Below, one piece after another: positions 1-15,287 of a stretch of DNA of 16,714 bases (within the stretch, counting starts at the first letter, position 1; every line of letters begins with the position of its first letter). A program made the translations under genes and the position numbers. The notes beneath the pieces are model-generated. The model was not told where the DNA came from. It saw only the letters and a program-made list of their open reading frames with translations, and did not search any database. The stretch is from Thermoplasmata archaeon (GTDB lineage: Archaea; Thermoplasmatota; Thermoplasmata; Thermoplasmatales; Thermoplasmataceae), in the NCBI GenBank assembly GCA_021790415.1, contig JAJYDZ010000003.1, positions 1-16,714 of the forward strand. Reading direction: 5' to 3'.

Positions 1-1
1 C

Positions 2-3000
2 AATAGGAAAGCTACAATTTATGCTCTTCTTGCAGGAGCAACTTATGGGGCCCTTCAGCTTTCCTGGCAGGGACATGCTTACATTCTTGCTATTGTTACT
101 ATATATGTAGTTATCCAGTTGATCGTGAACCTGTTCCTTTCAAGGAACAATGAATATCTCGTTTATGTAAGTTTTATATTTGTCGCGATTTCATTCTCTA
201 TGAGTGCTTATTATTATTACGCTGCAAACAATGCCCCAAGTGCATGGTTTGTCCCCCCACTTTACATAGGATTGGGAATGATATTAATATCTGTTATTAT
301 GAGTATAGCGGGTAGAAAACCATGGATCATTTCAATTCCAGTAATGATTCTCTTTATAGGTGCTACTCTCGCCGGTCTTTACAAATTTGCACCTCATATT
401 TTCAATGAAATCATATCGGGAGAGGGGTATTTCATAAAGAATAGGGTTTATCAGACAATAGCTGAAGCTCAATCACCACCTCTCGGACAGTACATTGGAG
501 GGTTTGGGGTTGCACAGTTTATACTTGGCATTGCCGGTTTTGCTTATGTTACCTATTCATTCGTTAAACAAAAATCTGATTCCCTTCTTTTGCTTCTAGT
601 GTTTAGTGGAGTTTCAATATATATGAGTTTTGCAGCAGCTAGATTCAATGTAACTGCAGCACCAAGTTATGCTATACTTGGAGCAGCGCTCCTTGCATAT
701 TTCTCCAATCTGCTCAAATTGGACAAAAATGTTAGTGAAGACAGAATTAAAAGAACATATAGAAGAAGTAAGGCCCTTACAGGAAATATTAAATGGCTTC
801 AAGCTGCATTTGTATTTTTAATCGCGTTTGGAATTCTCATACCCTCCGGTCTCGGAGTTGTTTCAGCTGCGGTTCCCGGAAACTCTGCAACTTCAGTGAA
901 TCATGAGGTTTATAACGCACTACCGTCATTTTTGAAACCAACTTCTTATCTTGCTAACCAGAGCGCATATTTTGGCACAACTGGTTCATTTATCACCAAT
1001 TCAACAACTCCTTTATCAAAATCCCTTGCATGGCTTGCTACACAACAGCAAAATCTCTCACTTGCAGAGAAACCTGCTTATGTCAACTGGTGGGATTACG
1101 GTTTCCAGGAGTTAAGTCAGGGCAAACATCCAACAGTTGCAGATGACTTTCAGCAGGCATATCAGGTTGCCGGGCAAATACTCCTTTCCCAAAATCAGTC
1201 ACAGATAATTGCTCTTCTGTCTGCAAGACTGATGCAGGCTTCATTACTGCAGAACAATGGACAGTTTACACCCGTAATGAAAAGTGCTCTCTCTGAATAC
1301 CTGAATGCATCAGAAATAAATACTCTTCAGAGTATTTATAACAATCCACTACAGGATGTTCCATGGATACTGAACAATGCTTCTGTATATGGACAATTCA
1401 TTCCATCAATTTCATCTACGAACGCATATTTTGCCTTAATTAAAGGACAGTTGGCATCAAAAGTGAGTCTGACTAATCTGGTAAATTTATATCAGAATCT
1501 GCAAAGTGTGACAGGGTGGAGCATTCAATATATACAGGCTGACCATTCACTTTTCCCTCTTAACGGTCTGAACACAGGTATATTCTATGCACCCGCTTAT
1601 CTTACTGACACGCCATCATACATAACTCCCGGAGGAGGTGTTGTTCCAACTGCATATTACCAGATTTTCGCGCAGACTCCAAATGGTACTTATCCATTAA
1701 ACCAACTTCCTACAAACCTGATTCCAACAGGGTACACAATTCAATACACACCAGCATTCTATAACACGACCTTGTACAGGGCAATGATAGGAATACCTCC
1801 ATCTGCAGTAGGCCATACACAAGGAATTCCCGGTCTAACATTTGGAACAACGAAATATACTATGCAACCTGCCTGGAATATGAGCAATTTTGAGTTGGTA
1901 TATGATGGTGTCCCCTATAATCCATATAAAAACTTTAGCGCACATCCAAACGCCTTCAAGATTCTACCTATCCAGCAGGCTTACAATCTTCAAAAGAATG
2001 GAGAAGGTACTGCCTTTATCTTTCCACAGGTTTCATCTATAATTCAGGGAACTGACCCAATTCTAAGATATTTCCCAGGAGCAATCGTAACAGGTCAGGT
2101 AAAGACGAATTCAGGAATACCTGAATCAGGCATAAGAGTAACTATACTGGATCAGTATGGAATACCTCACCAGACGGTTTTAACGAACTCAAATGGTTAC
2201 TATAACATAACAGCACTTCCCGGAAATGATACCCTCATATACTCTTATGGAACGTTGAACTCACAAACTCTGGAAGGAAAAAATTTCCTCCATGCTATTG
2301 GATTTGCTATCTCAAACCAACAGGCAGAAAGAAAAGATCTGGCTCTGAACACTACCACAGGACTTCCTAACTACTATCTTGTTAAGAATTACCACGTAGG
2401 GAATTTCAACTCTACAGGTACTGTGGAAATTCAGAAACAAAATGGAATTAATGGAAAAAGTTTCAGCACAACCAAAGTAGAGAATGGAACTGTAATATTG
2501 CAGAATCATATATCCGGTCAGATATTCAACTTCAGCATCAATCATGGGTCATACAATGTAACTGGTATTCCACAGGGAAACTACACAGTATCTGTTTATT
2601 CTAACGGAATCACGTACCATAATATACAGGACAATGTTTACACTCCAAATTCTAACATTGGATATGCCATTAAAATACCGATGTCTCTCATACAGGTCAA
2701 CCTCTCTTACAATGGTCAAAGGATTTCCGGTGCTACAGTTTATGCTGGAAAATACACTGCAACAACAAATAGCACAGGTACTGCACTCATGTACACTGTT
2801 AATGGATCATATTCTGTTTATGGAAAATTAGGAAACAGTATAACACAGATATCTGACGTTAATATTCCTGTGCTAGGGGAAAACCAAAGCCTAAATCTCT
2901 CACTATTACCCGCTGCGAGATTAACTATTAGCATTTCAAATCAGGGATTCACGCCTTCTGTATTAGACATCTACCAATCTTCATACTCACTAAATCAATT

Positions 3001-5635
3001 GCAACTTCAGAAAAATGGCAGTTTCTACACAGGTCTTGTTCCGTTAGGCTATTACAGTGTTTATGATACTTATGACAACATGACGGTACTTCAGGGTGTT
3101 AATTTAAATTCCTCCGGAACTTATACCTTACATGCATATTCCTCTGCCATCTTGAAAGTAAAAAATACCAATGAAAATCTAACACAGTTATCAGGATATC
3201 TCAGTCTCACTAATAGCCAGGGAACGATTATAAAATTAATTCAGGCATTAAATCAGAACATTTACCTTCCCGCAGGATTCACTTATACAATCTACTCTTC
3301 AGCATTTACAAGCACAACTGATTACGTTGCTACCTCAACTGTGAATCTTAATCAAAACACTCAAGCATATATAGATTTCCAGACAGCAAAAACAGTCCAG
3401 ATAGGAATTTATAACCCTTCAGTTGCTGCTGTTTATGATAGCCAATCTTCGGTAAGTTCAGGAGTTGCAATGATAAATCTAAACGGTGGAGCTTATGGAT
3501 CTGCAATTATTAATGCAAAAGGGAATACGCTGATTGCATACAATGCTCAATCCTTGTCCGGCTTCACCATGAAGGCATATTCAGAAGGTTTCTCAACTTC
3601 TACATTCACGGTCTCCACTCAGACTAACGCACCATTAAATCTTCAGAAATCCAATGTCTCTCTTAAATTCACTTCTGTGAATGGCGGTGCGCTACTTGAT
3701 GGGAAAATCACACTTGTGGGTTATTCTAATTATACTTCCAATATCGTAAATGGAAAGGTTAGTTTTAATAATTTACCATACGGTTCGTATTTCCTGAAAA
3801 TATTTGGAGGTAATCAGGTAATTTCCTCTTATCAGCGGATTCTTACTGTTTCAACAGGAGCATATTCGCAGTCATACAATTTTACCAGCCATGTTGTTTT
3901 CAACGTAAATGGTGTGCAATCTTTCAAGATTTTCAAAAATGGCACATTGATAAATGAAGTAAATGGAACTATTGCACCAGGAATTTATACTGTATATGAA
4001 CTTGGAAATGGTCTACAATCCGGAATATCAACCTATAGGATAAACAATAACACAACAGTGAATGCCGTATTATACAACTCATATTGGCTTAATCTCACCA
4101 ATAATTTGGGCATAAGCACAGGGAATTTACTGATAAATTCATCATCTGGCCTGATAAATCTTACATCAATGTCAAGTATTCTTCCGGAAGGATCTTACTC
4201 TGTTCATTATTATGACAATTTAGTAAATTCAACTGGCGAATTCAGAGTTTATCATAATATGACCATGTTATTGAAATCGAACATACAAAGCAACATTACT
4301 TTGAGTGTGGCCCCTTTCTTCACACAGGTGAATGGTCTAGCACTCTACTCGGGCTCTTCTATGGCAGCAATCAATGTCTCTTTCTACAAAAATAATTTGC
4401 TTGAAGGATGGACTTACACAACAGGATCTGGCCACTATAATTTCAGTCTCGCTAACGGAACTTATACCTTGTATGCGTACAGCAAATCAGCAATGGTTGC
4501 GTATCTGGGCCATGTCAGTATTGGGATCTTTCAGGATACTTCTACCAATAATGTATCTTTGGCATCTGCCAATTATATATATGTTTATACTTATGTCGGG
4601 CAAGCACCTAAAGCTGAGAATGTAAACTTGACAGTTTCAAATCTTGGAATATCAACTACCTCAGGTACTGGAATTCTCCTTCCTGCGAAAAATATCACAT
4701 TTACATCATACACTTCGAATACTCTTACAGTGAACAATTACACATTTTCCAACGAGTATCAGTCATCAATTACAATATACACGAATAAAACACAATCACT
4801 TAGCCTGATACTTGAAAAGGTGATTAATGGAAACGTTTCAATCAAGCAGAATTATGTTGCGCAAAACGTAACAGAATTTTCAGCATTCTCCTATAATCTA
4901 AACATAACAAATCTTCTCACAACAGAGACTAACCTTACATTATCATCTGGAAGCAGTGATTGGAATATCACTTTTAATACTAGTACATTGAAAAATCTCG
5001 GTATTAACAGAACTGCATATGTTAAAGCCAACATTAAAAATGTCAATACTGTGCCCTCAGGTGTAAATGAGATACCAATATTGGTCAGCTACAATGGTGG
5101 ATCGCTAACGGATAATGTAAAGGTCAATATGAGTGTAAATTATTCAGCCTCATTAAACATTTCAACTGACTTTGCTGCATTTGATGGTGGAAACATAACA
5201 TACAGTGCTATATTGAAAAACACGGGAAACACGAACGAAACTTTAAATCTTTCAAACAACATCTATTCTAAATATAACTGGCAGGTTGTGTTCAGTATTA
5301 ATGGAAAGATTGTGAACTCAACAAATCTATCCTACGGGCAGTCAAAGAATCTCATCATCACACTGGTACCTGAATCCAATTACTATAACAGTGCATTCAA
5401 CTTTACTGTACAATACAGTATATATCAACTGAACAGTTCGGCAGTCCATTCAGAAAACCTGTATGTGTCGTTCCCAAATCTTGGGGGACTGTACAACACA
5501 GCCAAAGGCGGAAACATTATTGCAAATTACACAGGCAATCCTATATCAACAATTGAAATTGGAATAATGGTTATCGTTGTAGCGGTGATTGGTGGACTTG
5601 CAGGTGTAGCATTCAGAGGGAGGAAAAACAGATGA
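2..5635 (+). CDS. aglB: AglB/STT3-family oligosaccharyltransferase with giant C-terminal extension (5' partial)
   Basis: This enzyme transfers a lipid-linked oligosaccharide to Asn in N-X-S/T sequons on the outer face of the membrane. The frame is open from base 2, so the gene starts outside the window; a TTG at 119 is internal to the membrane domain. 1877 residues are visible (numbered from base 2). Residues 1-290 are multi-spanning membrane domain with the TIAE external-loop motif (152-155). The catalytic WWDYG is at 363-367. The soluble domain continues to a beta module starting near G693 (GAIVTG). After it come roughly 1100 residues of repeated beta-rich modules, a NEW3-like domain (about 1610-1830), a C-terminal membrane helix (about 1848-1870) and a basic tail. 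Archaeal AglB proteins are usually about 800-1000 residues, so this is nearly twice the normal size. I could not confidently place the DK/MI motif. The TGA overlaps the next gene's ATG. Confidence 0.92.
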   Translation, partial: NRKATIYALLAGATYGALQLSWQGHAYILAIVTIYVVIQLIVNLFLSRNNEYLVYVSFIFVAISFSMSAYYYYAANNAPSAWFVPPLYIGLGMILISVIMSIAGRKPWIISIPVMILFIGATLAGLYKFAPHIFNEIISGEGYFIKNRVYQTIAEAQSPPLGQYIGGFGVAQFILGIAGFAYVTYSFVKQKSDSLLLLLVFSGVSIYMSFAAARFNVTAAPSYAILGAALLAYFSNLLKLDKNVSEDRIKRTYRRSKALTGNIKWLQAAFVFLIAFGILIPSGLGVVSAAVPGNSATSVNHEVYNALPSFLKPTSYLANQSAYFGTTGSFITNSTTPLSKSLAWLATQQQNLSLAEKPAYVNWWDYGFQELSQGKHPTVADDFQQAYQVAGQILLSQNQSQIIALLSARLMQASLLQNNGQFTPVMKSALSEYLNASEINTLQSIYNNPLQDVPWILNNASVYGQFIPSISSTNAYFALIKGQLASKVSLTNLVNLYQNLQSVTGWSIQYIQADHSLFPLNGLNTGIFYAPAYLTDTPSYITPGGGVVPTAYYQIFAQTPNGTYPLNQLPTNLIPTGYTIQYTPAFYNTTLYRAMIGIPPSAVGHTQGIPGLTFGTTKYTMQPAWNMSNFELVYDGVPYNPYKNFSAHPNAFKILPIQQAYNLQKNGEGTAFIFPQVSSIIQGTDPILRYFPGAIVTGQVKTNSGIPESGIRVTILDQYGIPHQTVLTNSNGYYNITALPGNDTLIYSYGTLNSQTLEGKNFLHAIGFAISNQQAERKDLALNTTTGLPNYYLVKNYHVGNFNSTGTVEIQKQNGINGKSFSTTKVENGTVILQNHISGQIFNFSINHGSYNVTGIPQGNYTVSVYSNGITYHNIQDNVYTPNSNIGYAIKIPMSLIQVNLSYNGQRISGATVYAGKYTATTNSTGTALMYTVNGSYSVYGKLGNSITQISDVNIPVLGENQSLNLSLLPAARLTISISNQGFTPSVLDIYQSSYSLNQLQLQKNGSFYTGLVPLGYYSVYDTYDNMTVLQGVNLNSSGTYTLHAYSSAILKVKNTNENLTQLSGYLSLTNSQGTIIKLIQALNQNIYLPAGFTYTIYSSAFTSTTDYVATSTVNLNQNTQAYIDFQTAKTVQIGIYNPSVAAVYDSQSSVSSGVAMINLNGGAYGSAIINAKGNTLIAYNAQSLSGFTMKAYSEGFSTSTFTVSTQTNAPLNLQKSNVSLKFTSVNGGALLDGKITLVGYSNYTSNIVNGKVSFNNLPYGSYFLKIFGGNQVISSYQRILTVSTGAYSQSYNFTSHVVFNVNGVQSFKIFKNGTLINEVNGTIAPGIYTVYELGNGLQSGISTYRINNNTTVNAVLYNSYWLNLTNNLGISTGNLLINSSSGLINLTSMSSILPEGSYSVHYYDNLVNSTGEFRVYHNMTMLLKSNIQSNITLSVAPFFTQVNGLALYSGSSMAAINVSFYKNNLLEGWTYTTGSGHYNFSLANGTYTLYAYSKSAMVAYLGHVSIGIFQDTSTNNVSLASANYIYVYTYVGQAPKAENVNLTVSNLGISTTSGTGILLPAKNITFTSYTSNTLTVNNYTFSNEYQSSITIYTNKTQSLSLILEKVINGNVSIKQNYVAQNVTEFSAFSYNLNITNLLTTETNLTLSSGSSDWNITFNTSTLKNLGINRTAYVKANIKNVNTVPSGVNEIPILVSYNGGSLTDNVKVNMSVNYSASLNISTDFAAFDGGNITYSAILKNTGNTNETLNLSNNIYSKYNWQVVFSINGKIVNSTNLSYGQSKNLIITLVPESNYYNSAFNFTVQYSIYQLNSSAVHSENLYVSFPNLGGLYNTAKGGNIIANYTGNPISTIEIGIMVIVVAVIGGLAGVAFRGRKNR
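2078..4500 (+). repeat. Recurrent beta-sandwich modules in the AglB tail
   Basis: The AglB extension repeats a short edge pattern, a Pro/Gly or Asn-Gly turn followed by Y-x-V/L-x-x-Y. Examples are IPQGNYTVSVYSNG near 2563, VNGSYSVYG near 2800, VPLGYYSVYD near 3035, LPYGSYFLKIFG near 3769, APGIYTVYELG near 3975, LPEGSYSVHYYD near 4180 and ANGTYTLYAYS near 4453. This is the style of carboxypeptidase-regulatory/CnaB/PEGA-like domains. The repeats are diverged in protein and not identical in DNA, so they are old duplications or independent family members. Family assignment is by eye. Confidence 0.6.
5615..5623 (+). promoter_or_regulatory. Shine-Dalgarno for the gene after aglB
   Basis: AGAGGGAGG lies eight bases before the ATG at 5632 and inside the last aglB codons. 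It fits the GGAGG core of the archaeal Shine-Dalgarno and supports translational coupling across the ATGA overlap. Confidence 0.6.
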
Positions 5636-6435
5636 ACTACAAATTTTTAATTTCAACAATTTGTGTATCACTGATTGTCATGTCAATACCGCTGGCATTT
5701 GCAGAGCCTTCACATGCTACTAACGGCTCATTCAATGTCACTGTATCTCATCCATCAAGTGTATATAAAAACGAAAGATTTCAGATATTCTTTAATGAAT
5801 CACAGGGTTTTTCAAACTATACAGCCACTATCTATACTGCAGCAGAATATGCCATAGGCCTATCCGCTGGAGGAAACTCACACGAACTTTCGAAAAGTGG
5901 ATTCTTTGAGTTCAATATCACGGCACCAGATGCAGCAAATCAATCCGTATATATCACAATCTATGCCACTGCAACCTACGGTTCTGTTGAAGTCAGTAAA
6001 ATTATCAATATTGCAATTCCTGTCTATGAGCCAATTACACTCAGCGCATATATCTCTAACATAGAATCTACAACATACAGTAATATGTCAATACAATTCA
6101 TTCTTAACGGAGCAATCATTTCAACAAAGGTAGTATCACTAGGTCCCGGTGCGAGCAAGGAAATTACGGTGATTGAACCATCCAGCCTTTTGAATAACGG
6201 AATTAACACTCTTCAGGTCAAGATCTTGAATGGCTCCCTGTTCACTGGCGTAAAATCATCATACGTAAGTACATTTTATTATGGGACGCCTCCAAACTAT
6301 GACTGGATATATTATATCTCAGGTGGAGTTGTTATATTCATGGTGTTCTTAGTGCTTGCCTCCGGCAAGAGGAAAACAGCTACTGGACAGCCAAAATGGA
6401 GATACAACAGGAAGAAAAAACAAAAGAAATCTTGA
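5632..6435 (+). CDS. Secreted, C-terminally anchored Ig-like surface protein
   Basis: Function unknown. The 267-residue product has a clear signal peptide (residues 1-24, hydrophobic core, likely cut after AFA). Two beta-rich Ig/CARDB-like segments follow (about 30-125 and 128-215). Then come a single membrane helix (about 224-244) and a strongly basic cytoplasmic tail ending KKKQKKS. Eight N-X-S/T sequons are visible (for example NGS, NVT, NES, NYT, NIT), so it is a plausible target of the enzyme encoded just upstream. Its start overlaps the aglB stop as ATGA, with a Shine-Dalgarno at 5615-5623, so the two are very likely made together. It could be an accessory subunit of the glycosyltransferase, a surface-layer component, or only an operon companion. 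The stop abuts the stop of the convergent gene with no space between. Confidence 0.85.
   Translation: MNYKFLISTICVSLIVMSIPLAFAEPSHATNGSFNVTVSHPSSVYKNERFQIFFNESQGFSNYTATIYTAAEYAIGLSAGGNSHELSKSGFFEFNITAPDAANQSVYITIYATATYGSVEVSKIINIAIPVYEPITLSAYISNIESTTYSNMSIQFILNGAIISTKVVSLGPGASKEITVIEPSSLLNNGINTLQVKILNGSLFTGVKSSYVSTFYYGTPPNYDWIYYISGGVVIFMVFLVLASGKRKTATGQPKWRYNRKKKQKKS
6411..6429 (-). terminator. T-rich tract downstream of the RNase H-fold gene
   Basis: Read on the minus strand, this stretch is T-rich with runs of three, four and six T, starting 7 bases after the stop of the minus-strand gene. It is the complement of the Lys codons in the tail of the + strand gene. Oligo-T tracts are known intrinsic terminators in archaea; use here is inferred. 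Confidence 0.45.
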
Positions 6436-7077
6436 TCAGATATTATTTAATGTACGGAACTCCTCTTCTATGAGTTCTCTTCTTTTCTTTACAGTCATGG
6501 AAGGGCCATTTTTTAGGAATATCTCTATATTTGCTATTCTTGCAGCTGAAAGGGCATTGTCATGCGTTTTATGGGGAAAACTTGTACCGGTTTCATTGAC
6601 TATCTCAACATTCAAGCCAAGTGGTAAAATCTGCCTCAATATAAACTGCCTGTTAGGTTTATCTCCATTCCCTACCCTGATGGAACAGTATTCTGCCTCA
6701 TAGTCTCCAATTAATCTTTCGACAGTGTTTCTTATTTGTCCCACATCAAAGAGTTCAAAGGCTTCAAGTACAACGTTATTTGAAGTGACTGCAATTCCCG
6801 GTTTAGGCCCAGGGTCTATTCCTATATATATGGTGTGAAATTTATCCCTGCCCATGAAGAATGAAAAACTTCTGCGAACAGCCCGAACTGGATCTTCCTG
6901 GAAAATCTGTTTCTCAGATATTCTGCTATCACCAGTTGAACTTAACACAACATCAACATTTTTCAAATCCTCGAAAATGTTTTCTATCGATATAAAATTA
7001 ATTCCAAAATCCTTGAGTGCGCGGATCACGCCATAGTAAAACCTTGGGTTTTTAGTATATATTCCAAGCTTACCCAT
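6436..7077 (-). CDS. RNase H-fold (RuvC/YqgF-like) protein with extra N-terminal domain
   Basis: 213 residues, probably a nucleic-acid-processing enzyme whose substrate cannot be named from sequence. Residues 1-80 form an alpha/beta domain with little resemblance to anything I know. From about 83 an RNase H-like fold begins: GIDPGPKPGIA (86-96) carries the first catalytic-type Asp, D88, followed by the Gly turn typical of RuvC/YqgF and COG2433-type archaeal proteins. E105 or E108 could be the second acidic residue. H172-D173 followed by a small-residue helix resembles the C-terminal Asp helix of RuvC. The chain is much shorter than typical archaeal COG2433 proteins. The ATG at 7077 is preceded by a TATA-like box at leaderless spacing and no Shine-Dalgarno. 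The gene ends exactly where the convergent operon ends. Confidence 0.7.
   Translation of the reverse strand: MGKLGIYTKNPRFYYGVIRALKDFGINFISIENIFEDLKNVDVVLSSTGDSRISEKQIFQEDPVRAVRRSFSFFMGRDKFHTIYIGIDPGPKPGIAVTSNNVVLEAFELFDVGQIRNTVERLIGDYEAEYCSIRVGNGDKPNRQFILRQILPLGLNVEIVNETGTSFPHKTHDNALSAARIANIEIFLKNGPSMTVKKRRELIEEEFRTLNNI
6475..6490 (+). terminator. Pyrimidine-rich tract downstream of the aglB operon
   Basis: A 16-base all-pyrimidine tract with T runs up to four lies about 40 bases past the end of the + strand operon, inside the 3' end of the convergent gene (its Lys/Arg/Glu codons). It is a weaker candidate than the minus-strand tract. Confidence 0.25.
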
Positions 7078-7100
7078 TCTATATGAATAATAGAACGTTG

Positions 7101-7108
7101 TATTTTAA
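7101..7108 (-). promoter_or_regulatory. TATA-like box, RNase H-fold gene
   Basis: On the minus strand this reads TTAAAATA, 24-31 bases before the ATG. That spacing places transcription start at or next to the start codon, so a leaderless mRNA is expected. It sits in the 130-base gap between this gene and the recJ stop. The rest of that gap holds only a C/T-rich tract just after recJ (7194-7207). Confidence 0.5.
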
Positions 7109-7207
7109 CCATGCGAGCGAGAAGCCCTTTCACAAAAGTAGCTTCATGCCCAACAATTGTCATACATGATATATTTTGTTCTACTGGTTATTTGGGGGAG
7201 GAGGAAG

Positions 7208-8566
7208 TCACCGTCTTTTGATGTTTTTAATCTGAATCCCAACCATTTCGTCCACAAGCTCAACAAACTGCTTCTCCCTTCCTCGGGGGATATTCCCGCC
7301 TGCAGCAATGTCATGGCCTCCGCCATTTCCTTCCACCTTGGTTGCACATTCTTTCATCACCTGGGATAGATTGAGTCCCATCTCAACCATCTTTCTTGTT
7401 CCTCTGCTGGATACAAGTGTGATCTTGTCTCCGGCATTGAATCCTATGACTGGTTTTGTCTGATCTGCAAGGTAGAGCATCAAAGTGCCAGAAATTGCGC
7501 CTGCCATCTCAGAGCCTGGCGCATAGAAAAACTGAATATTTTTGCTTTTTTCCATGGACTTGTATGATCTTGTGATATAATCTATTAGTTTAGTTTCGTA
7601 TATTTTCCGGTTTTTTATCATTATTTCCTTGAGAGAGGTGTTGCCAATGAAATACTCAACTGGAATGGAATTGTCACCATTTTTAGCATTTGCATCTATG
7701 ATAACTGAAAGTTCCGATGACGTGAATCCGTTGGAAAATATCATTTCATCTCTTTCAAGGTAGGACATTGCCTCGCTCTGGCACCCCTGGATCATGAGCC
7801 TGTATGAAAGGTGCTTTCCCAGCAACAGTTTTTCCTCATTCGTAAGGGACTCAGGTTTTCTTGTCCCATCAAGTTTCAGATCATTTAGAAGTGCTTCAAC
7901 ACCTTCTCTGGAACCTGTTAAGCCATTTATGAACGGATCTATGGAATATACAATTGAATCTATAAGTGTTTCACCATGCAGATTGAGGACATGCTTTTTT
8001 TCAATATTCTTTCCGAAGGCCTCAATGAGTCCCCTGTTTACCCCTTTAAACCCTTCCATGTCCTGTTTGTCTGCCATTGCTCCTGTGATCATGAATGGAA
8101 GAAGATCTGAATTCTCAGAATTCATAGCCACTGCAAAAATGAAGGCCATTGTGGCCCCACAGGCTTCTCTTGTTCCATCTATTCCATAATCTCTGGCATT
8201 TATGTTCAGAACACCATTTGGGCTGTCAGAATACAGGTGATGATCAAGAACCAGTATATTCTTCTCCCCAGAATCAAAATATTTTGCCTGGTCTGATCCA
8301 CAGTCCACAAATATAGTGGGAAGATTCTTTTCTTCCTCGTATCTCTTGACCATACCTTCCCTGGACAAGTCCTTTACAAATCCAAGATGGAATCTCTTCC
8401 CTGCCCTGAGCATCGCATTGGTGAGAATAATGGCTGAACTTGTACCATCTCCATCATAGTGTGCCAGAATCCTGAAATAATCGAATTTGTCAAAAAATTC
8501 TCTTGCTTTGTCAAGAGAAGCAATAAAGTCTTTATTGATTATTTTGTCAAGCATTGGTATACTCAC
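7208..8566 (-). CDS. recJ: RecJ-like DHH/DHHA1 single-strand exonuclease (archaeal RecJ/GAN type)
   Basis: 452 residues with all core DHH phosphoesterase motifs: HYDGDG at 36-41 (H36, D38, D40), D88 in DCGS, D108-H109-H110, and D166 in GAMAD. The C-terminal DHHA1 motif GGGH is at 415-418. These residues bind two divalent metals, so an active nuclease is predicted rather than a degenerate Cdc45-like scaffold. In archaea such proteins associate with GINS and the replicative helicase or act on single-stranded DNA or RNA ends; which paralogue this is cannot be told here. The usual rps15-recJ archaeal pairing is present. The first candidate start is a GTG at 8566 overlapping the S15 stop as GTGA. 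An in-frame ATG at 8554 (codon 5) is equally plausible. Neither has a clear Shine-Dalgarno. Confidence 0.93.
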   Translation of the reverse strand: MSIPMLDKIINKDFIASLDKAREFFDKFDYFRILAHYDGDGTSSAIILTNAMLRAGKRFHLGFVKDLSREGMVKRYEEEKNLPTIFVDCGSDQAKYFDSGEKNILVLDHHLYSDSPNGVLNINARDYGIDGTREACGATMAFIFAVAMNSENSDLLPFMITGAMADKQDMEGFKGVNRGLIEAFGKNIEKKHVLNLHGETLIDSIVYSIDPFINGLTGSREGVEALLNDLKLDGTRKPESLTNEEKLLLGKHLSYRLMIQGCQSEAMSYLERDEMIFSNGFTSSELSVIIDANAKNGDNSIPVEYFIGNTSLKEIMIKNRKIYETKLIDYITRSYKSMEKSKNIQFFYAPGSEMAGAISGTLMLYLADQTKPVIGFNAGDKITLVSSRGTRKMVEMGLNLSQVMKECATKVEGNGGGHDIAAGGNIPRGREKQFVELVDEMVGIQIKNIKRR

Positions 8567-9000
8567 AATACTTTGTTGAGTTCCCAGCCTTTTGCAAGAC
8601 GTCCCGTTCTCTTGTAGTACCTTACAAGTCTCAGCATCTTAGCCATTACAAGGCTTCTTCTCCTACTATTGCTGATATCCTTTTTGTTGAGGTTCATGTG
8701 TTTTGAGACTCTCTTGTATTTCGTTATAAGTGCAAGGAGATCTTCAGGAACTTCTGGTGCAATGTTATTTTCAGAAAGTACGTCGCCTATCTTCTTCTTG
8801 TTGATATATTTGAGCTTTGGAACACCATAGAGGTCCCTCAATTTTATACCTATCACTGATGCGGTAAGTCCATCTTTCCTCATCTGAACCACTGCTTCTT
8901 CAACCTCGCTCTGACTCATCTGTATCCAGTTGTGCTTCTCGCCGTAGAATGAGTTTCTTGACCCTGATTTTCCTTTTTTCCTAGTATGCATCTTCGCCAT
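8563..9000 (-). CDS. rps15: 30S ribosomal protein S15
   Basis: 145 residues, the normal length for archaeal/eukaryotic S15 (S13e-type), which binds 16S rRNA in the platform of the small subunit. The N-terminus MAKMHTRKKGKSGS matches the conserved archaeal S15 start and supports the ATG at 9000 over the in-frame Met at codon 4. The basic helical core runs to the C-terminus with MAKMLRLVRYYKRTGRL (about residues 119-135), typical of the family. It overlaps recJ by four bases and is evidently its transcriptional leader. It lies 88 bases downstream of the carbonic-anhydrase-like gene and probably has its own promoter. Confidence 0.96.
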   Translation of the reverse strand: MAKMHTRKKGKSGSRNSFYGEKHNWIQMSQSEVEEAVVQMRKDGLTASVIGIKLRDLYGVPKLKYINKKKIGDVLSENNIAPEVPEDLLALITKYKRVSKHMNLNKKDISNSRRRSLVMAKMLRLVRYYKRTGRLAKGWELNKVL

Positions 9001-9020
9001 TGGAAATCACGTTTTTGATC

Positions 9021-9046
9021 CATATGAATAGCTTATTTATTAATAT
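9021..9046 (-). promoter_or_regulatory. Promoter region of rps15-recJ
   Basis: The minus strand carries an AT-rich box (AATATTAATAAATAAG across 9031-9046), 31-46 bases before the S15 ATG, and a second box TATTCATATG (9021-9030), 21-30 bases before it. The second would give a leaderless mRNA; the first a leader of roughly 10-20 bases. I cannot choose between them. Confidence 0.4.
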
Positions 9047-9088
9047 TGAGTTTAGAAATGTGGGCCTCCGAATGAATGAAGCATTCCT

Positions 9089-9574
9089 CTACTGTATGTA
9101 TCTCTCTTTAAGTTTCAAATATTCAAGCGCATTTAAGTGAGCCATGGCACGGAATTCTGGACTATTTTTTCCTATCTTGCCGGGGACTCCCAGAACAAGG
9201 CTCCCTTCAGGGATAACACTATTCTGTAGAACAACTGCTCCAGCAGCAACAACGCTTCCTGAGCATATCCTGGCCCCATTCATCACAATGGCCCCCATTC
9301 CAATTATACAATCATCTTCGATTGTTGCACCGTGAACCACTGCATTATGTCCTATGGACACATATTTTCCAATTTTTATGGGATATTGTTCATCCACATG
9401 CATGGAAACATTGTCCTGCACATTGCTGAATGAATCTATACTGATCAATTCCGACTCGGTCCTGATGCTTGCAAAATCAAAAATGGAGCATTCATCTCCC
9501 AGCTCAATATTTCCCCTCAGGGAGGCAAGATGGGAAATATAGCAATTTTTTCCTGTTTTCAGAGGCATGATCAT
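9089..9574 (-). CDS. Gamma-class carbonic anhydrase-like hexapeptide-repeat protein
   Basis: 161 residues folding as a left-handed beta-helix, expected to form a trimer with metal sites between subunits. The zinc/iron-ligand histidines of the gamma-CA family are all there: H59, H76 and H81, with the 17- and 5-residue spacing of short YrdA/CamH-like members that lack the acidic loop of Cam. R38 and Q53 (in NVQDN) match the conserved Arg and Gln. The usual R-G-D is here R-T-E, so the Asp is replaced by Glu at residue 40. A C-terminal helix (about 137-158) packs on the helix as in the family. True CO2 hydration activity is uncertain because many members have none shown. Start may be ATG 9574 or the in-frame ATG 9568; the latter better fits a leaderless start from the TATA-like box. 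No operon partner is obvious. Confidence 0.88.
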   Translation of the reverse strand: MIMPLKTGKNCYISHLASLRGNIELGDECSIFDFASIRTESELISIDSFSNVQDNVSMHVDEQYPIKIGKYVSIGHNAVVHGATIEDDCIIGMGAIVMNGARICSGSVVAAGAVVLQNSVIPEGSLVLGVPGKIGKNSPEFRAMAHLNALEYLKLKERYIQ

Positions 9575-9589
9575 GTATGGTATGATCCA

Positions 9590-9600
9590 TTAAAAAATAA
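9590..9600 (-). promoter_or_regulatory. TATA-like box, carbonic-anhydrase-like gene
   Basis: Minus-strand TTATTTTTTAA lies 22-32 bases before the ATG at 9568 and 16-26 before that at 9574. It shares the 105-base divergent spacer with the promoter of the large TPR gene. Confidence 0.35.
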
Positions 9601-9651
9601 CTGTGCATTCGATCTGGGATCAGGCAATACTGCTGAAAACATGTCTTAAAG

Positions 9652-9660
9652 TTATATATC
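9652..9660 (+). promoter_or_regulatory. TATA box of the TPR-M50 operon
   Basis: TTATATATC, centred about 24 bases before the ATG at 9680, with no Shine-Dalgarno between. This is the geometry expected for a leaderless transcript. An out-of-frame ATG at 9675 would not yield the protein. Confidence 0.6.
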
Positions 9661-9679
9661 AAATTAGCAATCCTATGTC

Positions 9680-12600
9680 ATGGCTCTCCCAGGCGAAGAG
9701 AACATTTACAGTATTCTGAAGCACAACATAGACCGATATCTTTCCTCGCGTTCAAAGGAGACCCGCAGGAAGATAACAGAAGAGATAATTTCTTCTCTGG
9801 AGCGTCTTCCTGAATCTTTCACTGCGGATAAGAATCTCTCCTCACAGCTTGAGGTTGTGGTCAGGGATATTTGGGAAAAACAAGACATTCATGATTCATC
9901 AGCAATTCGGAATTTTTACAGAGTGGATATGGAGAACCGAACTTTCCAGATATTTTATACAAAGTCACTGGTTATGGGGGGAGATTCTGCTGAAATAATG
10001 GCATTCCTAAAAGGCAAGTCCATAATAGCGAACATACCACAGGTAGTGGAAAACGTCATGGAAATGGGAAAAATTACATCCCAATGGGACTTTATCGTTA
10101 TGTTTCTCTCCATGAATGGAATATATAATGAGACTGCATATCTGAAATATTCGGAAAATGCTTCCAAACTTATTACTGACATAATAATTGAAAACCTGAA
10201 AAGGAAAAATGCAACCAAGGAGACCATGGAATTCCTCAGAGCTATTTCCGCTGTTGATAACAGCCTTGAATACAAGATTGCTTATCTTGAGGCTCTTGGA
10301 GATAACAATGATATTCCTTCTCTGAAGAGCCACCTTAAAGCAATGGAATTGAACTGGATTGAAGATCTGGAGGACAGAGTCAGGCTGGCACTTCTGTTTG
10401 AAAAAGTTGGCATTTATGATGAATCCCTGAACCTTGCTAATGAGGCTCTCAATGAAAGACCAGGACACGAGGTATGCCTTGAATTGAAGATCAAGCTACT
10501 GTTCGAGCTTGGAAGAGATGAAGAGGTTATAGATCTTTTTCTCGACAGGCATTCAATATTGGAGAAGAGTGCAGAGAGCATGGGAATGTTCTTCAGGTCT
10601 GCAGAGAAAGTGAACAATTATGCTGCAGCAATATCTGTAATCGACAACAACAGGCAGTTAATTGAAAGGCATCAGGATCTTACAGTATGGGCTGTAAAAT
10701 TTCTCGTAAAAGCAAAAAGGACTGATGAGGCAGAAAAACTTATGCATGAACTTCAGGGAAGCGCAATGTCCGACTCGGAGATGCTTAAACTCTCATCCCT
10801 TATAGAAAAAGGGAAAGGGAATATAGATTCTTTCGTGGAGAAATCCGAAAGATATCTTGTGGAAAACCCACATGATATCCAGTTCATAAGCACATATATT
10901 GCTGAGCTCCACAGAAAGGGAATGTTTCAGAAGATTGCCATGCTGTATGAATCATCCGGGGAGGAAATGTTTGGCAATGAACCAGAGACTCTGAAAAAAG
11001 TCCTGGAATCTATGCTTAGAATGAAGGTGTACGAGAAGGCTGGCCAGATACTCAACAGGATTCCATCGGAAAACCTGGATTCTGAAATTGCCATAGCAAT
11101 TCTTGAAACAACAAGGGATGACACATCATTTTCCCAGTTGCAGAAGTATTCTGAAAAGAAAAATACAGGTCAATTTATGAGTGTTTTAAGAGATATTCTT
11201 TACACTGATACACTTACTGCGCCTGATGTCAGATTTGTAAAGGAGAATATGAACGACCAGAACGGACGAACAATTATGTACCTTTTTGCTAAAAAGGAGG
11301 AGTTGGAACAGATCACAAGTATAGAGATGAGTCCAACCATCAATGAAATACGAATGGAGATTGGAAAAAATAATCCAGAGAAAGACTGGAAGCAGTTCAA
11401 TTTCCCTGTCACCAAGGCAAAAATCAGTTCTGGAGAATTTACGGCTGCCGGGAAGATGTTATCAGTGATGGATTCAGAAGCAGATCCGTATCTGCTGTAT
11501 TACAGATCTCTTTATGAAAAGCATTTGGGACATATTACAAATTCAAGGTACAGCATTGAAAAGGCCATGGAAAAAATCAGGGCCACGCCATTTCTTGAAG
11601 CATATCTGCAGATAAACCACAATACAAATGCACAGCAAGCTCTCAGGATAATTGAAGAAATATCCAAGCTCAGAGGCCTTGAAGATTTTGATTTCACACC
11701 GGTCGAAAGCACATTCATTTCCAACAGTGACTTGGATGTTACTGCCAACTTATTGGATCTTTTAGAATACTCTGGAGTTGACAATATCTTTGCCTTAAGG
11801 CTAATGAGAGAAATAAAGATCAGAGACAACGATATTGAAGGCGCTATAGGAATAGACCAGAAAATAATCTCAAATGAGGTGGCGAAAGCTCAGGACATCA
11901 TGAATTATGCAATGGACCTGAAACAGGGGAACAGGATGCCTGAAATGGAAATTCTGATCAAGAATGCTGAGGGTAAGAATATAGATATGGGCACATCCCT
12001 CATATTTGGTGATTTTTACCTGTCGAAAAGAGATTTTTCCTCTGCAATTTACTATTATGAAAAGGCTGCAGGACAGGGAAAGAAACGTGAAGACATACCC
12101 GGTTTGATAGAGGCGCTCATTGGGGATTCAAAGTTTGATGCCGCTCTGGAACTTATAGGGAAATTGCCAAACAAAACACCGTACATGATCAATCTTTATG
12201 CAGCAACAGAGAATGTGCAGGAAATCTCAAAAATAATGAAGAAGCTGAACCTGAAGAACGAAGAAGACAGGGATGCACTCACTATTGTAGTTGACAGGTA
12301 CTGGTCAAACAAAATACTCAGGGAAAATGCAATCGAAAAAATCATGGTTCAGCCAGTACAGAATCCGGGCATTTCCATTGTTGAAAAACTTTTCGGGGAC
12401 AGGAGGGCAGATGCCGCAATTCAACTATTGAGGAAAATTTCCAAAGAAACAAGGGACAGCCCTGAAGTCATATCACTGATGATCAGGATTCTTCCAGATA
12501 TGGGGAAAATTGAAGAACTAAATGAATATCTGACTAAATTCTTCAATTCAAGAAAAGCGTTAAAGGACAAGAGAAAAGTGTTTCATGAAGCATGCATTGA

Positions 12601-13342
12601 ACTTGAGAAATCAAGAATGTATGACATCATACTGAAACACTATCAGGATCATCCAAACCTTTTAGACAATGTTTCTGCAGGAATAATTGTATATTCTATG
12701 ATTGAAAGAGGGTATTTCAATCATGCTGAAAACCTGCTGGCAAAGCTTCAGGGGTCTCTCATCAAAGGAGATGAATATGAAAAACTCACTTCACTTCTTA
12801 AAAAGAGCATGTATCTGGACAAAATCATAACTTATGCTGGAATGGTTCTGAAGAGAAGTTACAACCTTGGAAGAAGAATGGATAAGGGAGAGATCATCAG
12901 CACCACAAAAACAGATCCAATCATGGTGGATGACATAATGGAATTTCTGGCAACCCCGCCAGACACACATCTTTATCCGATTGAGTATCTTGAAAGAGTA
13001 TCCTATGAACTGCTTAAGATAATCAATAGGAAATTGGGAATAAGCAGGATAGAGGAAATTGACATGTTCCATCTCTTCTTTGCATCCAATTTCAAGGATG
13101 TAAGGCTGTCTGTTGCCCTGTACTACTATATCAGGGATCTGTCAAAGCAACAGAAAGATCGGTTGACGGTTGATACAAAGGAAATTCTGGATTTAGCAAA
13201 CAGATGCATAATGGAAAACCTGCCGGAAAACCCAATGATTTATAGTATAACGTTTGATATAGGCATAGGAAAGGCATACAGGGTTTATGCCAAGGCAAGG
13301 GAAATAAAGCAGGTTAACAGGGGGCCAGGATGGAGATATTAA
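9680..13342 (+). CDS. Giant alpha-solenoid (TPR-like) protein of unknown function
   Basis: 1220 residues with no signal peptide or membrane helix, so probably cytoplasmic. The chain is almost wholly helical, with repeated amphipathic helix pairs of TPR type. The clearest are about 234-290 (LLFEKVGIYDESLNLANEAL and the following pair), 335-425, and 773-830 (YLSKRDFSSAIYYYEKAA and the following pair). The last 150 residues (from about 1070) look like a distinct helical cap rather than TPRs. I recognise no catalytic motif. TPR solenoids usually serve as protein-binding scaffolds, so a binding or assembly role is inferred. The gene has its own leaderless-type promoter and overlaps the following M50 protease gene by 13 bases, so the two are probably co-translated and may work together. 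Codon use resembles its neighbours. Confidence 0.85.
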   Translation: MALPGEENIYSILKHNIDRYLSSRSKETRRKITEEIISSLERLPESFTADKNLSSQLEVVVRDIWEKQDIHDSSAIRNFYRVDMENRTFQIFYTKSLVMGGDSAEIMAFLKGKSIIANIPQVVENVMEMGKITSQWDFIVMFLSMNGIYNETAYLKYSENASKLITDIIIENLKRKNATKETMEFLRAISAVDNSLEYKIAYLEALGDNNDIPSLKSHLKAMELNWIEDLEDRVRLALLFEKVGIYDESLNLANEALNERPGHEVCLELKIKLLFELGRDEEVIDLFLDRHSILEKSAESMGMFFRSAEKVNNYAAAISVIDNNRQLIERHQDLTVWAVKFLVKAKRTDEAEKLMHELQGSAMSDSEMLKLSSLIEKGKGNIDSFVEKSERYLVENPHDIQFISTYIAELHRKGMFQKIAMLYESSGEEMFGNEPETLKKVLESMLRMKVYEKAGQILNRIPSENLDSEIAIAILETTRDDTSFSQLQKYSEKKNTGQFMSVLRDILYTDTLTAPDVRFVKENMNDQNGRTIMYLFAKKEELEQITSIEMSPTINEIRMEIGKNNPEKDWKQFNFPVTKAKISSGEFTAAGKMLSVMDSEADPYLLYYRSLYEKHLGHITNSRYSIEKAMEKIRATPFLEAYLQINHNTNAQQALRIIEEISKLRGLEDFDFTPVESTFISNSDLDVTANLLDLLEYSGVDNIFALRLMREIKIRDNDIEGAIGIDQKIISNEVAKAQDIMNYAMDLKQGNRMPEMEILIKNAEGKNIDMGTSLIFGDFYLSKRDFSSAIYYYEKAAGQGKKREDIPGLIEALIGDSKFDAALELIGKLPNKTPYMINLYAATENVQEISKIMKKLNLKNEEDRDALTIVVDRYWSNKILRENAIEKIMVQPVQNPGISIVEKLFGDRRADAAIQLLRKISKETRDSPEVISLMIRILPDMGKIEELNEYLTKFFNSRKALKDKRKVFHEACIELEKSRMYDIILKHYQDHPNLLDNVSAGIIVYSMIERGYFNHAENLLAKLQGSLIKGDEYEKLTSLLKKSMYLDKIITYAGMVLKRSYNLGRRMDKGEIISTTKTDPIMVDDIMEFLATPPDTHLYPIEYLERVSYELLKIINRKLGISRIEEIDMFHLFFASNFKDVRLSVALYYYIRDLSKQQKDRLTVDTKEILDLANRCIMENLPENPMIYSITFDIGIGKAYRVYAKAREIKQVNRGPGWRY

Positions 13343-13944
13343 ACTTTGGAAAGACCAGAAATTCAAGCGAACTGGAAGATTTCACAATCGCAAGCCTGAT
13401 CATAGGATTGGCATTTTCTATTGCACTTTCTGCGTATACAAATCAATTGTATGGCCCGAAATTCCTTCTGTTCTATCTTCCAGCAGGAATGCTTTCAGGA
13501 GTCAGCGCATTCGCACTTCATGAACTGGCACACAGGCAGATGGCCATAAGATATGGATTTCATGCCAGATTCAGGATGTGGCCCTTTGGCGTGTTATTTG
13601 CACTTGTGACCTCATTCTTTGGTTTCATATTTGCAGCTCCAGGGGCAACCGAAGTGTATAACGTAACAAGCCCGGAACTCTATGGCAAAATATCCGCAGC
13701 AGGGCCAATCACCAATACTGTTTTAGGACTGATATTTTTCTCAATAAGCATGTTTGTTGGAGGAACGCCGGGGCTCGTTCTTACAATTGCGGGTTCAGTG
13801 AATATTGCTCTTGCTTTCTTCAACCTTCTTCCAATTCCTCCTCTGGATGGTTACAAGGTTTTCAAGTGGGATACTACCATTTACCTGTTAATGTTCGTTT
13901 TCGCCATTCTGTTATTGATAGTACTTGACAGGGGTTTCTTCTGA
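13330..13944 (+). CDS. M50 (site-2-protease-like) intramembrane metalloprotease
   Basis: 204 residues, about five to six membrane helices. The zinc-binding HELAH sits in a membrane segment (H64, E65, H68). The second metal-site motif NLLPIPPLDG is at 165-174, with D173 as the third zinc ligand. A conserved GPITN stretch lies at 125-129. It is a compact catalytic core without PDZ or CBS domains, like many archaeal M50 proteins. Family members cut membrane-anchored regulators or proteins inside the bilayer. The substrate is unknown. The ATG lies within the end of the TPR gene (13-base overlap), with purine-rich GGGGGCCAGG just before it, so expression is coupled to the solenoid protein, which could recruit substrates; that is an inference. 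Active-site residues are intact. Confidence 0.9.
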   Translation: MEILNFGKTRNSSELEDFTIASLIIGLAFSIALSAYTNQLYGPKFLLFYLPAGMLSGVSAFALHELAHRQMAIRYGFHARFRMWPFGVLFALVTSFFGFIFAAPGATEVYNVTSPELYGKISAAGPITNTVLGLIFFSISMFVGGTPGLVLTIAGSVNIALAFFNLLPIPPLDGYKVFKWDTTIYLLMFVFAILLLIVLDRGFF

Positions 13945-13989
13945 ACACAAATACTAATTAACCAATATTGCGATCTGAGGATGGTATAA

Positions 13990-14442
13990 ATGGAATGCGA
14001 ACTGTGTGGGCAAAAAAGCGAGAGACTGAAAAAAGTGAAGATTGACAGCGCCATAATGTCTGTATGCCAGAAATGCGAAAAATTTGGCATTCCTCTTGAA
14101 AACATGAGAGTTCAGAATGTTTCTCCACCACAGAAATCGGCAACTCCAGTGTTCATACCACAGGCCAGGGCTGTGCCAAAAGTTACCGGGGGAAATCATT
14201 CAAGAAATTTCCATAAAAAAAAGGATTCCGATATTGAAAACCTTGAGATTGTTCCGGATTTCAATGAACTCATTAAATCAGCAAGAACTAAGATTGGAAT
14301 ATCCCAGGAAGAGATGGCAGACAGGATGAAGGAGAAGCGAACGCTTATTGCTGCTATTGAAAGAGGCAGTATCAAGCCCGACATCAAAACAGCCCGAAAA
14401 TTCGAATCTCTATTAAACATAAATATAGTTGAAAAGATATAA
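13990..14442 (+). CDS. mbf1: Archaeal multiprotein bridging factor 1 (aMBF1)
   Basis: 150 residues in the standard aMBF1 layout. An N-terminal zinc ribbon has C3-x2-C6 and C26-x2-C29. A low-complexity linker follows (about 45-85). The C-terminal Cro/cI-type helix-turn-helix (about 91-150) contains IGISQEEMADRMKEKRTLIAAIERG. Eukaryotic MBF1 bridges activators to TBP; the archaeal protein has been linked to ribosomes and translation, so its role is not settled. It begins 45 bases after the M50 gene and may be read through from it. GAGG at 13977-13980 is a weak Shine-Dalgarno. A three-codon frame (ATG GTA TAA, 13981-13989) directly abuts the real ATG. Confidence 0.93.
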   Translation: MECELCGQKSERLKKVKIDSAIMSVCQKCEKFGIPLENMRVQNVSPPQKSATPVFIPQARAVPKVTGGNHSRNFHKKKDSDIENLEIVPDFNELIKSARTKIGISQEEMADRMKEKRTLIAAIERGSIKPDIKTARKFESLLNINIVEKI

Positions 14443-14460
14443 TATTTAAATAATAACAAA

Positions 14461-14476
14461 TATTTTTTAAAAAATA
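14461..14476. terminator. Perfect A/T palindrome after mbf1
   Basis: TATTTTTTAAAAAATA is a perfect 16-base palindrome, 19 bases past the mbf1 stop. It offers a six-T run on either strand, suited to oligo-T termination of mbf1 transcripts. The rest of the 105-base gap holds another T run (about 14485-14490) and the oxidase promoter. Confidence 0.4.
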
Positions 14477-14520
14477 AGCATTCGATTTTTCATTGTGTCA
14501 TAAGCACCTTTCGATAAACT

Positions 14521-14536
14521 ATTAATAAAATATAAT
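14521..14536 (+). promoter_or_regulatory. Promoter of the oxidase operon
   Basis: ATTAATAAAATATAAT lies 12-27 bases before the ATG at 14548. Its left half is at leaderless distance. GGAG at 14542-14545 is close to the ATG and might be used if the mRNA starts further upstream. Confidence 0.45.
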
Positions 14537-14547
14537 CATATGGAGCC

Positions 14548-14796
14548 ATGGATGCTAATACGAAGATAGTGTCTATCTTTCTGATAATTTCCGTAATAGC
14601 AGGAATCATAAGTGAGTTCATTTTCAGGATTGCACTTACAAATTTCTATGCATCTTCTATAGGTCAGACGGACGCTATCTATGAATCCCCAATACTTGCA
14701 GCTGCACTTGCGTCAGGGTTGTTTACGCTTTTATTGTTATATTACCCGGTTTATAAGAAAGGTGTAAGGAACTACTCAGGAGATGATTTCAGATGA
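14548..14796 (+). CDS. Small two-helix membrane protein, oxidase-operon leader
   Basis: 82 residues, not recognised by family. Two hydrophobic helices (about 6-27 and 48-68) flank a short loop with acidic and polar residues, and the C-terminus is charged. The stop overlaps the ATG of the CuA subunit gene (ATGA), and a near-perfect Shine-Dalgarno for that gene lies inside its last codons. Co-expression with subunits II and I makes a structural or assembly role in the terminal oxidase likely. It is longer than the single-helix IIa subunit of the Thermus ba3 oxidase and has one more helix, so it is not simply that protein. It could correspond to a lineage-specific small subunit or an assembly factor. 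No heme or copper ligand pattern is visible. Confidence 0.8.
   Translation: MDANTKIVSIFLIISVIAGIISEFIFRIALTNFYASSIGQTDAIYESPILAAALASGLFTLLLLYYPVYKKGVRNYSGDDFR
14778..14787 (+). promoter_or_regulatory. Strong Shine-Dalgarno for oxidase subunit II
   Basis: AGGAGATGAT matches nine of ten bases of the ideal archaeal Shine-Dalgarno (AGGAGGTGAT) and stands five bases before the ATG at 14793. It fixes that start and shows internal operon genes use ribosome binding sites even though first genes look leaderless. Confidence 0.75.
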
Positions 14797-15287
14797 GCGA
14801 GAAAAATCACAACAACAAGATGAAAGCGGAGGCATTGTGGATCGTGGGCTTTATGGTTGTCTTAGCCTTTGCGGCAGGTCTTAATTTCTATATAACTTCC
14901 CAGAGCGATTTTAGCATAGCAACCAAAATGTCTGGTTCAAATCAAATACCAAAAAACAGCACACCCATTATAGTGGATGGTTACCAGTGGGCCTGGTCAT
15001 TTACATATTATAACGCATCAGGCAAACAGACAAGCGTGGACAATCTCAATATAACTGTAAACCATACCTATACGTTTATAATTACTTCCACAGCTGGTTC
15101 ACAATCAAATGCAGTAATTCACGATCTGTACATTCCTCAGTTTGGAATACAGGTTTATGCAGTTCCAGGCCAGAATAACACTATTACATTCACTCCTGTT
15201 AAAACAGGAACATTCGTTCTGGAATGCGTAGAATATTGTGGATATGAGCATTATCTTATGAGAGGCTATGTGACGGTGGTCGCCTGA
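14793..15287 (+). CDS. coxB: Heme-copper oxidase subunit II (CuA)
   Basis: 164 residues: one N-terminal membrane anchor (about 14-35) and an external cupredoxin domain that takes electrons from a copper protein or cytochrome and passes them to subunit I. The full CuA ligand set is visible: H110 (HDLYIP), C145, E147, C149, H153 and M156 in the C-x-E-x-C-x3-H-x2-M pattern. An aromatic cluster GYQWAWSF (63-70) matches the family's electron-entry region. A single anchor and short length fit B-type (ba3-like) subunit II rather than two-helix A-type proteins. Three sequons (N55, N74 and N86) lie in the external domain, so glycosylation is possible. The gene overlaps the small membrane protein upstream (ATGA) and the subunit I gene downstream (TGATG). 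Confidence 0.94.
   Translation: MSEKNHNNKMKAEALWIVGFMVVLAFAAGLNFYITSQSDFSIATKMSGSNQIPKNSTPIIVDGYQWAWSFTYYNASGKQTSVDNLNITVNHTYTFIITSTAGSQSNAVIHDLYIPQFGIQVYAVPGQNNTITFTPVKTGTFVLECVEYCGYEHYLMRGYVTVVA

Follow-up and report, generated by a model that had tools for sequence, protein, structure and literature searches.

What would an oligosaccharyltransferase (OST) do with a tail of more than a thousand residues that returns to the membrane at its far end? The question is raised by the first gene in a stretch of 16,714 nucleotides from a Thermoplasmata archaeon, referred to here as the window. On its forward strand, a frame without a stop runs from base 2, at the left edge, through 5635 and continues from an AglB core into the tail, confirming an earlier reading made from the sequence alone (the sequence-only reading). 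The complete aglB gene in the window's own assembly (G000) encodes 2,098 aa, which indicates that the window misses the first 221 codons and holds residues 222–2098 of the full-length protein plus the stop codon. Full-length numbering is used throughout; it equals the numbering of the sequence-only reading plus 221, so that residues 690–1877 of that reading become 911–2098 (window 2069–5632). The window and G000 differ at 21 bases (8 in 1–7595 and 13 in 6595–16714), which is probably strain variation. Elsewhere, the window holds a 1,220-aa TPR protein near housekeeping genes (9680–13342) and a cytochrome oxidase subunit II–like cupredoxin protein (14793–15287).

The frame encodes AglB, the archaeal OST, and its protein has the overall fold and the profile of the AglB/STT3 family. 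Alignment places the first acidic motif, SGGSD, at residues 53–57, the TIAE motif at 373–376 (window 455–466, forward strand), and the catalytic WWDYG motif at 584–588 (window 1088–1102, forward strand). The second acidic motif has a metal role. The corresponding region of the window's gene, which lies upstream of the window and was taken from locus L003, reads SDGRMHTPE (within residues 158–182); the pattern in family f1 is S/T-D/G-G-R-M/I-HTPE, with Asp, His, and Glu nearby but shifted in the alignment, whereas DHD is found in most rows of the class and DHH in Archaeoglobus fulgidus AglB. DHD/DHH is also replaced in low-charge, acidophile-like lineages that group with f1 in the tree (L058, L060, L061, and L062). 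The Pfam family PF02516 exceeded its cut-off in 205 of 284 genomes of the class, and G000 was not detected at 1e-3. In the hydropathy analysis, the core shows twelve peaks, with overlap in two pairs, and the extreme C-terminus one more.

Beyond the core, the tail is predicted to be an ordered, all-beta rod that ends in a membrane helix. AlphaFold2 modeling of residues 911–2098, with 36 relatives in the alignment, gave a mean pLDDT of 86.0 and nearly exclusively strand, apart from one long helix at residues 2068–2096; the pTM of 0.50 means that the mutual placing of the modules is not fixed by the model. In comparisons with solved structures (Foldseek/VIA), the modules best matched CnaB/transthyretin-like domains, although such fold matches are generic to Ig rods. 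The string of transthyretin/CnaB-like modules (residues 1019–1828, pLDDT mostly 80–95) occupies window positions 2393–4822 and comprises an estimated ten or so modules. It is followed by two Ig-like domains (about 1829–2048; window 4823–5482), the first of which resembles a sialidase Ig domain, and by the C-terminal transmembrane helix (window 5540–5626) with a very short basic end, all on the forward strand. The sequence-only reading, which had proposed domain searches and structure prediction as a check, anticipated seven or more beta modules, a NEW3-like domain, and a second membrane helix that tethers the loop at both ends. The ordered modules are borne out, and hydropathy and the modeled helix support the double anchor; the Ig-like pair is NEW3-like, but Pfam does not call NEW3 there. 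Below cut-off, Pfam listed fn3_3, EMC7, and others in the tail, and other class members matched CarboxypepD_reg and NOMO-type modules.

The extension starts later than had been assumed. The first beta module (residues 911–1018; window 2069–2392, forward strand) contains a CarboxypepD_reg match (window 2087–2272, forward strand; E 3.5e-11). In a second model covering residues 222–1190 (pLDDT 78.2), model residues 1 to 797–801 align with A. fulgidus AglB from residue 182/183 to its C-terminus at 868–872, whereas eukaryotic and bacterial catalytic subunits mostly end at model residues 691–696 and some yeast entries at 725–726. Because the alignment extends through this module to the point where A. 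fulgidus AglB ends, the module would be the equivalent of the P1 unit of a normal AglB. The extra tail proposed by the sequence-only reading is thus real, but it begins near window position 2393 rather than right after the core. Mean column identity is 0.58 for residues 901–950 and 0.49 for 951–1000, compared to 0.39–0.61 in the core and 0.29–0.44 after residue 1000; conservation of the first module is thus comparable to that of the core, whereas the tail is less conserved. Within the order, the tail can nevertheless be aligned end to end, with conserved glycines and tyrosines.

AglB-L from A. fulgidus (PDB 3waj, 7e9s, and 5gmy; 868 aa) ends after P1; beyond that point, the Thermoplasmata protein continues for approximately 1,080 more residues to a second transmembrane anchor, and a partner gene follows. 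Searches of the open-access literature yielded no account of the long tail, of the partner, or of an AglB lacking the OST motifs. AglB-L of Pyrococcus furiosus and P. horikoshii is not known to have more than a single additional unit or a transmembrane helix at its C-terminus, whereas about a dozen modules are present here. The peripheral beta units P1 and P2 that stand beside the core in P. furiosus and P. horikoshii AglB-L, as described in PMC3703281, are of a similar kind. The S-layer stalk SlaB of Sulfolobus (8qox), unlike the AglB tail, belongs to an ordered S-layer and is not fused to an enzyme.

The survey of AglB lengths that the sequence-only reading had suggested revealed the long form throughout the class. 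Matches were obtained in 109 of 117 genomes of the order, and the open frames mostly measure about 2,030–2,130 aa; the Thermoplasma volcanium protein TVG1271204 has 2,076 aa, so that a long AglB from a cultured species was already on record in databases. A class sample was composed of 80 genomes at ≥95% completeness together with G000 at 73%. Strong matches (E 1e-60 or better) were obtained in 77 of these 81 genomes, and in 72 of the 77 as a single frame of 1,829–2,459 aa. Counted by eye, 55 of the single frames span 2,053–2,459 aa, six of them with one TGA within the matched stretch, and 17, all from family f17, span 1,829–1,967 aa. The five exceptions are G041 and G043 (1,433–1,454 aa), G069, where the gene is divided between two overlapping frames, and G251 and G206, where a contig or record end truncates it. 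Below the cut-off fell three f17 genomes with weaker matches (G209, G230, and G227; E 5e-60 to 1e-38) and G308 (95% complete), in which no aglB was found, only isolated matches to single tail-type modules in short frames. With end-to-end frames throughout order and class, an oddity of one genome or an assembly artefact is ruled out, and the long-tailed form, judged from these frames, is the standard AglB of the class Thermoplasmata.

Departures from this length occur within and outside the class. In genus g2 (G041–G043, L143), roughly 650 residues of the middle tail are absent while both ends are kept, which indicates that the full length is not essential everywhere. Among 23 genomes chosen from other classes of the phylum, aglB frames range from 1,033 to 3,124 aa, and the C-terminal helix is absent in the seven short-tailed forms that could be measured (155–545 residues after the core). 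The longest, a 3,124-aa AglB encoded at L123, continues for 1,860 residues past the core and has a C-terminal helix. G057, which belongs to the same genus as the window, carries a further, diverged AglB frame with 33% identity that is open over 1,590 aa (G057:C20 and G057:C32).

Immediately downstream, with its start overlapping the aglB stop (ATGA), lies a gene for a 267-aa protein with a signal peptide, beta domains, one transmembrane helix, and a basic end (window 5632–6435, forward strand). The second beta domain is CARDB-like, and CARDB was recognized in 24 of 25 members of the family at E 0.01. CARDB-domain surface proteins (3idu, 2kl6) resemble this domain, but the partner is a small dedicated gene that overlaps or abuts aglB. 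Using a profile built from its relatives, the partner was found directly 3′ of aglB at 20 of 20 class loci (L045–L064); these loci had been chosen for long frames, so that length frequencies come from the 81-genome sample instead. It also follows the short-tailed gene of G042 as an overlapping gene and stands at the end of an intact aglB of genus g63 in G251. Outside the class, the partner lies downstream of aglB in G330 and G345, and in G334, G354, G361, and G331 the aglB frame itself contains the profile match; such a fusion hints at a physical link. Twelve genomes whose aglB frames measure 1,033–1,432 aa showed no partner match on the aglB contig when compared by eye (G327, G328, G332, G335, G336, G339, G342, G347, G362, G366, G374, and G386).

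A further property of the tail is its content of N-glycosylation sequons. A recount of the approximately 54 reported earlier gave 56 N-X-S/T sequons (X not P) in the 1,188 residues of 911–2098, compared to 31.9 ± 4.8 in composition shuffles, none of which (0 of 2,000) reached 56. The excess depends on direction: N-x-T occurs 35 times versus 15 for T-x-N, and N-x-S 20 times versus 19 for S-x-N; no excess is seen for N..S/T, NS/T, or Q-x-S/T. The alternation of beta strands was rejected as its source, given that the mirrored S/T-x-N is not raised (34 versus 32.1 expected) and that the surplus is found in N-x-T. Among 31 tails (33 loci minus L056 and L059, which lack WWDxG), forward motifs outnumber reverse motifs in 29 (1,190 versus 687; exceptions L045 and L051). 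In a 400-kb sample of the same-genus genome G048, surface proteins share the bias (N-x-T versus T-x-N, 135 versus 52 in 22 proteins), whereas cytoplasmic proteins do not (155 versus 161 in 192 proteins). The tail thus behaves like other exported, probably glycosylated proteins. No OST other than AglB was found in complete relatives (among them G048, G059, G060, G097, and G101), and the tail is probably glycosylated by AglB.

Could glycosylation account for the tail? According to the sequence-only reading, AglB may glycosylate its own tail to give a built-in coat element; the glycosylated rods would then be part of the disordered exterior protein layer of the wall-less Thermoplasmatales. The N-x-T excess speaks for self-glycosylation and holds in 124 of 124 listed tails of the intact type. 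According to PMC12448462, Cuniculiplasma and Oxyplasma have a dense exterior protein layer of approximately 20 nm, and Oxyplasma archaellin carries glycans at eight of nine sequons; for Cuniculiplasma, AglB and no S-layer were reported (PMC5155288). However, the stretch from 350 residues past WWDxG to the end measures 1,152–1,267 aa in 47 distinct proteins (58 locus rows), while its sequons number anywhere from 8 to 63. The positions of most single sequons are not conserved: a sequon of the window is shared, on average, by 27% of 81 rows, although 75 of 81 have the one at N963, which belongs to the P1 module. The claim of a uniquely sequon-dense tail is weakened by G048, in which surface proteins pool to 2.57 sequons per 100 aa (20 proteins; single values up to 6.77) and its own AglB tail has 4.09. 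Sequon bias is common to other surface proteins, the tail is retained where both OST motifs and bias are lost (see below), and an enzyme is probably too scarce to form a coat. The architecture is also class-wide and not bound to wall-less acidophiles, so that the lack of a rigid wall does not explain it. A coat function is for these reasons an unlikely explanation of the tail, although the tail may contribute to the coat as a side effect in acidophiles. Self-glycosylation keeps the support of the sequence bias, but it would be the glycosylation of any exposed surface protein rather than the purpose of the tail.

The relation between tail and chemistry can be examined in lineages without OST motifs. 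Family f17, with hit names of Methanomethylophilaceae and Methanoplasma, probably lies within the Methanomassiliicoccales. In 11 of 13 f17 genes examined, WWDYG and TIxE are lost, with GGSD kept in two of the 11; the remaining two, of genus g63, keep all motifs. WWDYG and TIxE are lost as well in G198 (L056), from another family. In the tree, g63 is the sister of the motif-less f17 clade and G198 is placed elsewhere, which indicates two separate losses. The exact WWDYG codons are absent genome-wide from 12 of 12 motif-less genomes, whereas each of the 7 intact control genomes contains them once. The partner is adjacent to aglB at all 12 of the motif-less loci, which likewise retain the tail (L056, L059, L125, L126, L145–L148, and L150–L153). 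Among 120 listed of 159 related motif-less-type proteins (P0126–P0245), WWDxG occurs in none, GG[ST]D in 15, and TIxE in 1, and the C-terminal helix is present in 118; among 124 listed proteins of the intact type (including 120 of 194 in one listing), WWDxG occurs in 123 (exception P0061) and the helix in 122. The proteins without the helix (two in each list) are all short (1,232–1,555 aa), and the two motif-less ones, at 1,232–1,313 aa, are perhaps fragments.

The loss of motifs is accompanied by a loss of sequon direction. Pooled over the listed proteins, motif-less tails contain 794 N-x-T versus 749 T-x-N, compared to 3,651 versus 1,662 in intact tails. Tail by tail, N-x-T exceeds T-x-N in 60 of 120 motif-less proteins, equals it in 12, and falls below it in 48, whereas all 124 tails of the intact type show the excess; the proteins are related, so that such counts are not independent. 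In motif-less tails (P0126–P0245), N-x-S still exceeds S-x-N by a small margin (830 versus 675). Surface proteins of the motif-less genome G229 are unbiased (67 versus 68 in 25 proteins); those of the intact genomes G187, G190, and G281 together are biased (29 versus 6 in 9 proteins), and G320, also intact, gave 6 versus 3 (8 proteins, too small a sample). According to PMC9723798, glycosyltransferases tend to be fewer in host-associated Methanomassiliicoccales than in their free-living relatives, which fits a loss of N-glycosylation in f17. As judged from the genes, the thing conserved in the motif-less lineages is a membrane protein with its rod and partner, and not glycan transfer.

Two interpretations of the motif-less proteins were considered. 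GT-C folds serve many donors, and the same membrane fold might have been retooled for another transfer reaction, with the tail still serving the enzyme. The stronger conservation of the core relative to the tail is consistent with this proposal: across ten motif-less gene pairs, dN/dS is 0.18–0.60 in the core and 0.34–1.28 in the tail (0.18 and 0.34 in the close pair L150/L153), the highest tail values (0.87–1.28) coming from four pairs with the distant L151, for which dS and alignment are unreliable. Intact pairs are saturated in three of four cases, and the fourth gave 0.041 for the core and 0.089 for the tail. However, the motifs are lost together, as the counts among the 120 listed proteins illustrate, and the residues at the former motif sites vary widely, which makes a new transfer activity improbable. 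Alternatively, these proteins may form an OST pseudoenzyme family, in which N-glycosylation was given up twice, once in a family that the hit names point to as Methanomethylophilaceae and once in G198, and the catalytically dead OST, rod, and partner were kept for a noncatalytic job; this is a serious candidate, at somewhat less than even odds.

That tail and partner outlasted the OST motifs in two lineages suggests that they probably have a job of their own. The explanation preferred here is an outer scaffold, anchored at both ends and served by a dedicated partner, that is perhaps located at the site of protein export and whose role is separable from sugar transfer; as a whole, this statement is assigned a probability of roughly 0.45. 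Its separability from sugar transfer is quite likely in view of the motif-less loci, and the export-site role is tentative. Counted against the explanation are the lower conservation of the tail relative to the core, the high tail dN/dS of the L151 pairs, the shortened tails of g2, the lack of an aglB match in G308, the generic nature of the fold matches, and the chance that the motif-less proteins acquired a different chemistry. In such an arrangement, rod and partner would together form a scaffold above the enzyme where exported proteins emerge. The scaffold would receive new surface proteins at the exit of the export channel and hold them; in lineages with an active enzyme, it would also present them to the active site.

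A rod of comparable make-up is known from eukaryotes, where NOMO, in the BOS complex (9c7v), likewise combines a long string of transthyretin-like modules with a C-terminal transmembrane helix. NOMO stands at the translocon in the place otherwise taken by OST (PMC9630114 and PMC7505659), but it is a separate protein, and its complex replaces OST at Sec61 (PMC9630114). The tail might accordingly be read as a true relative of NOMO, the luminal rod of BOS, fused to OST. The class profile matches human NOMO2 at E 6e-27, with the next beta-repeat protein at 2.8e-9, Pfam NOMO_5th is above cut-off in two of four proteins scanned (P0023 and L049), and length and module type are alike. However, reciprocal searches with a piece of NOMO2 gave 13 matches, spread over 11 of 121 class genomes, and only 2 of the 13 lie inside an aglB frame (G130 and G159), so that the likeness counts as analogy. 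P0023 alone does not reach NOMO at 1e-3, and NOMO may top the PDB list merely as the longest string of such modules. The NOMO second domain (PF22904), found in 0 of 21 relatives and in no control, is uninformative, as are the controls L135 and L137, which proved to match subtilisins and PKD-type domains; the absence of NOMO from the 50 Foldseek/VIA matches listed for the tail excludes nothing. Common descent with NOMO is consequently very unlikely. Equally doubtful is that a string of surface-protein modules was captured long ago and kept by drift without a specific role, for although modules of these types are widespread in surface proteins and the tail has evolved more quickly than the core, its near-constant length across the class, its end-to-end alignability and conserved residues within the order, and a partner gene at every class locus examined argue against it.

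If the scaffold explanation is correct, the catalytic subunit of an OST carries a second, structural job that has outlived its chemistry, and the partner is a candidate second subunit of the archaeal OST. The motif-less lineages would then represent a natural experiment that separates the structural job from sugar transfer. The ratio of N-x-T to T-x-N in surface proteins is a candidate genome test for working N-glycosylation; it agreed with the presence or loss of OST motifs in three of four samples, the fourth being too small. More generally, the scaffold would bear on the surface make-up of wall-less acidophiles.
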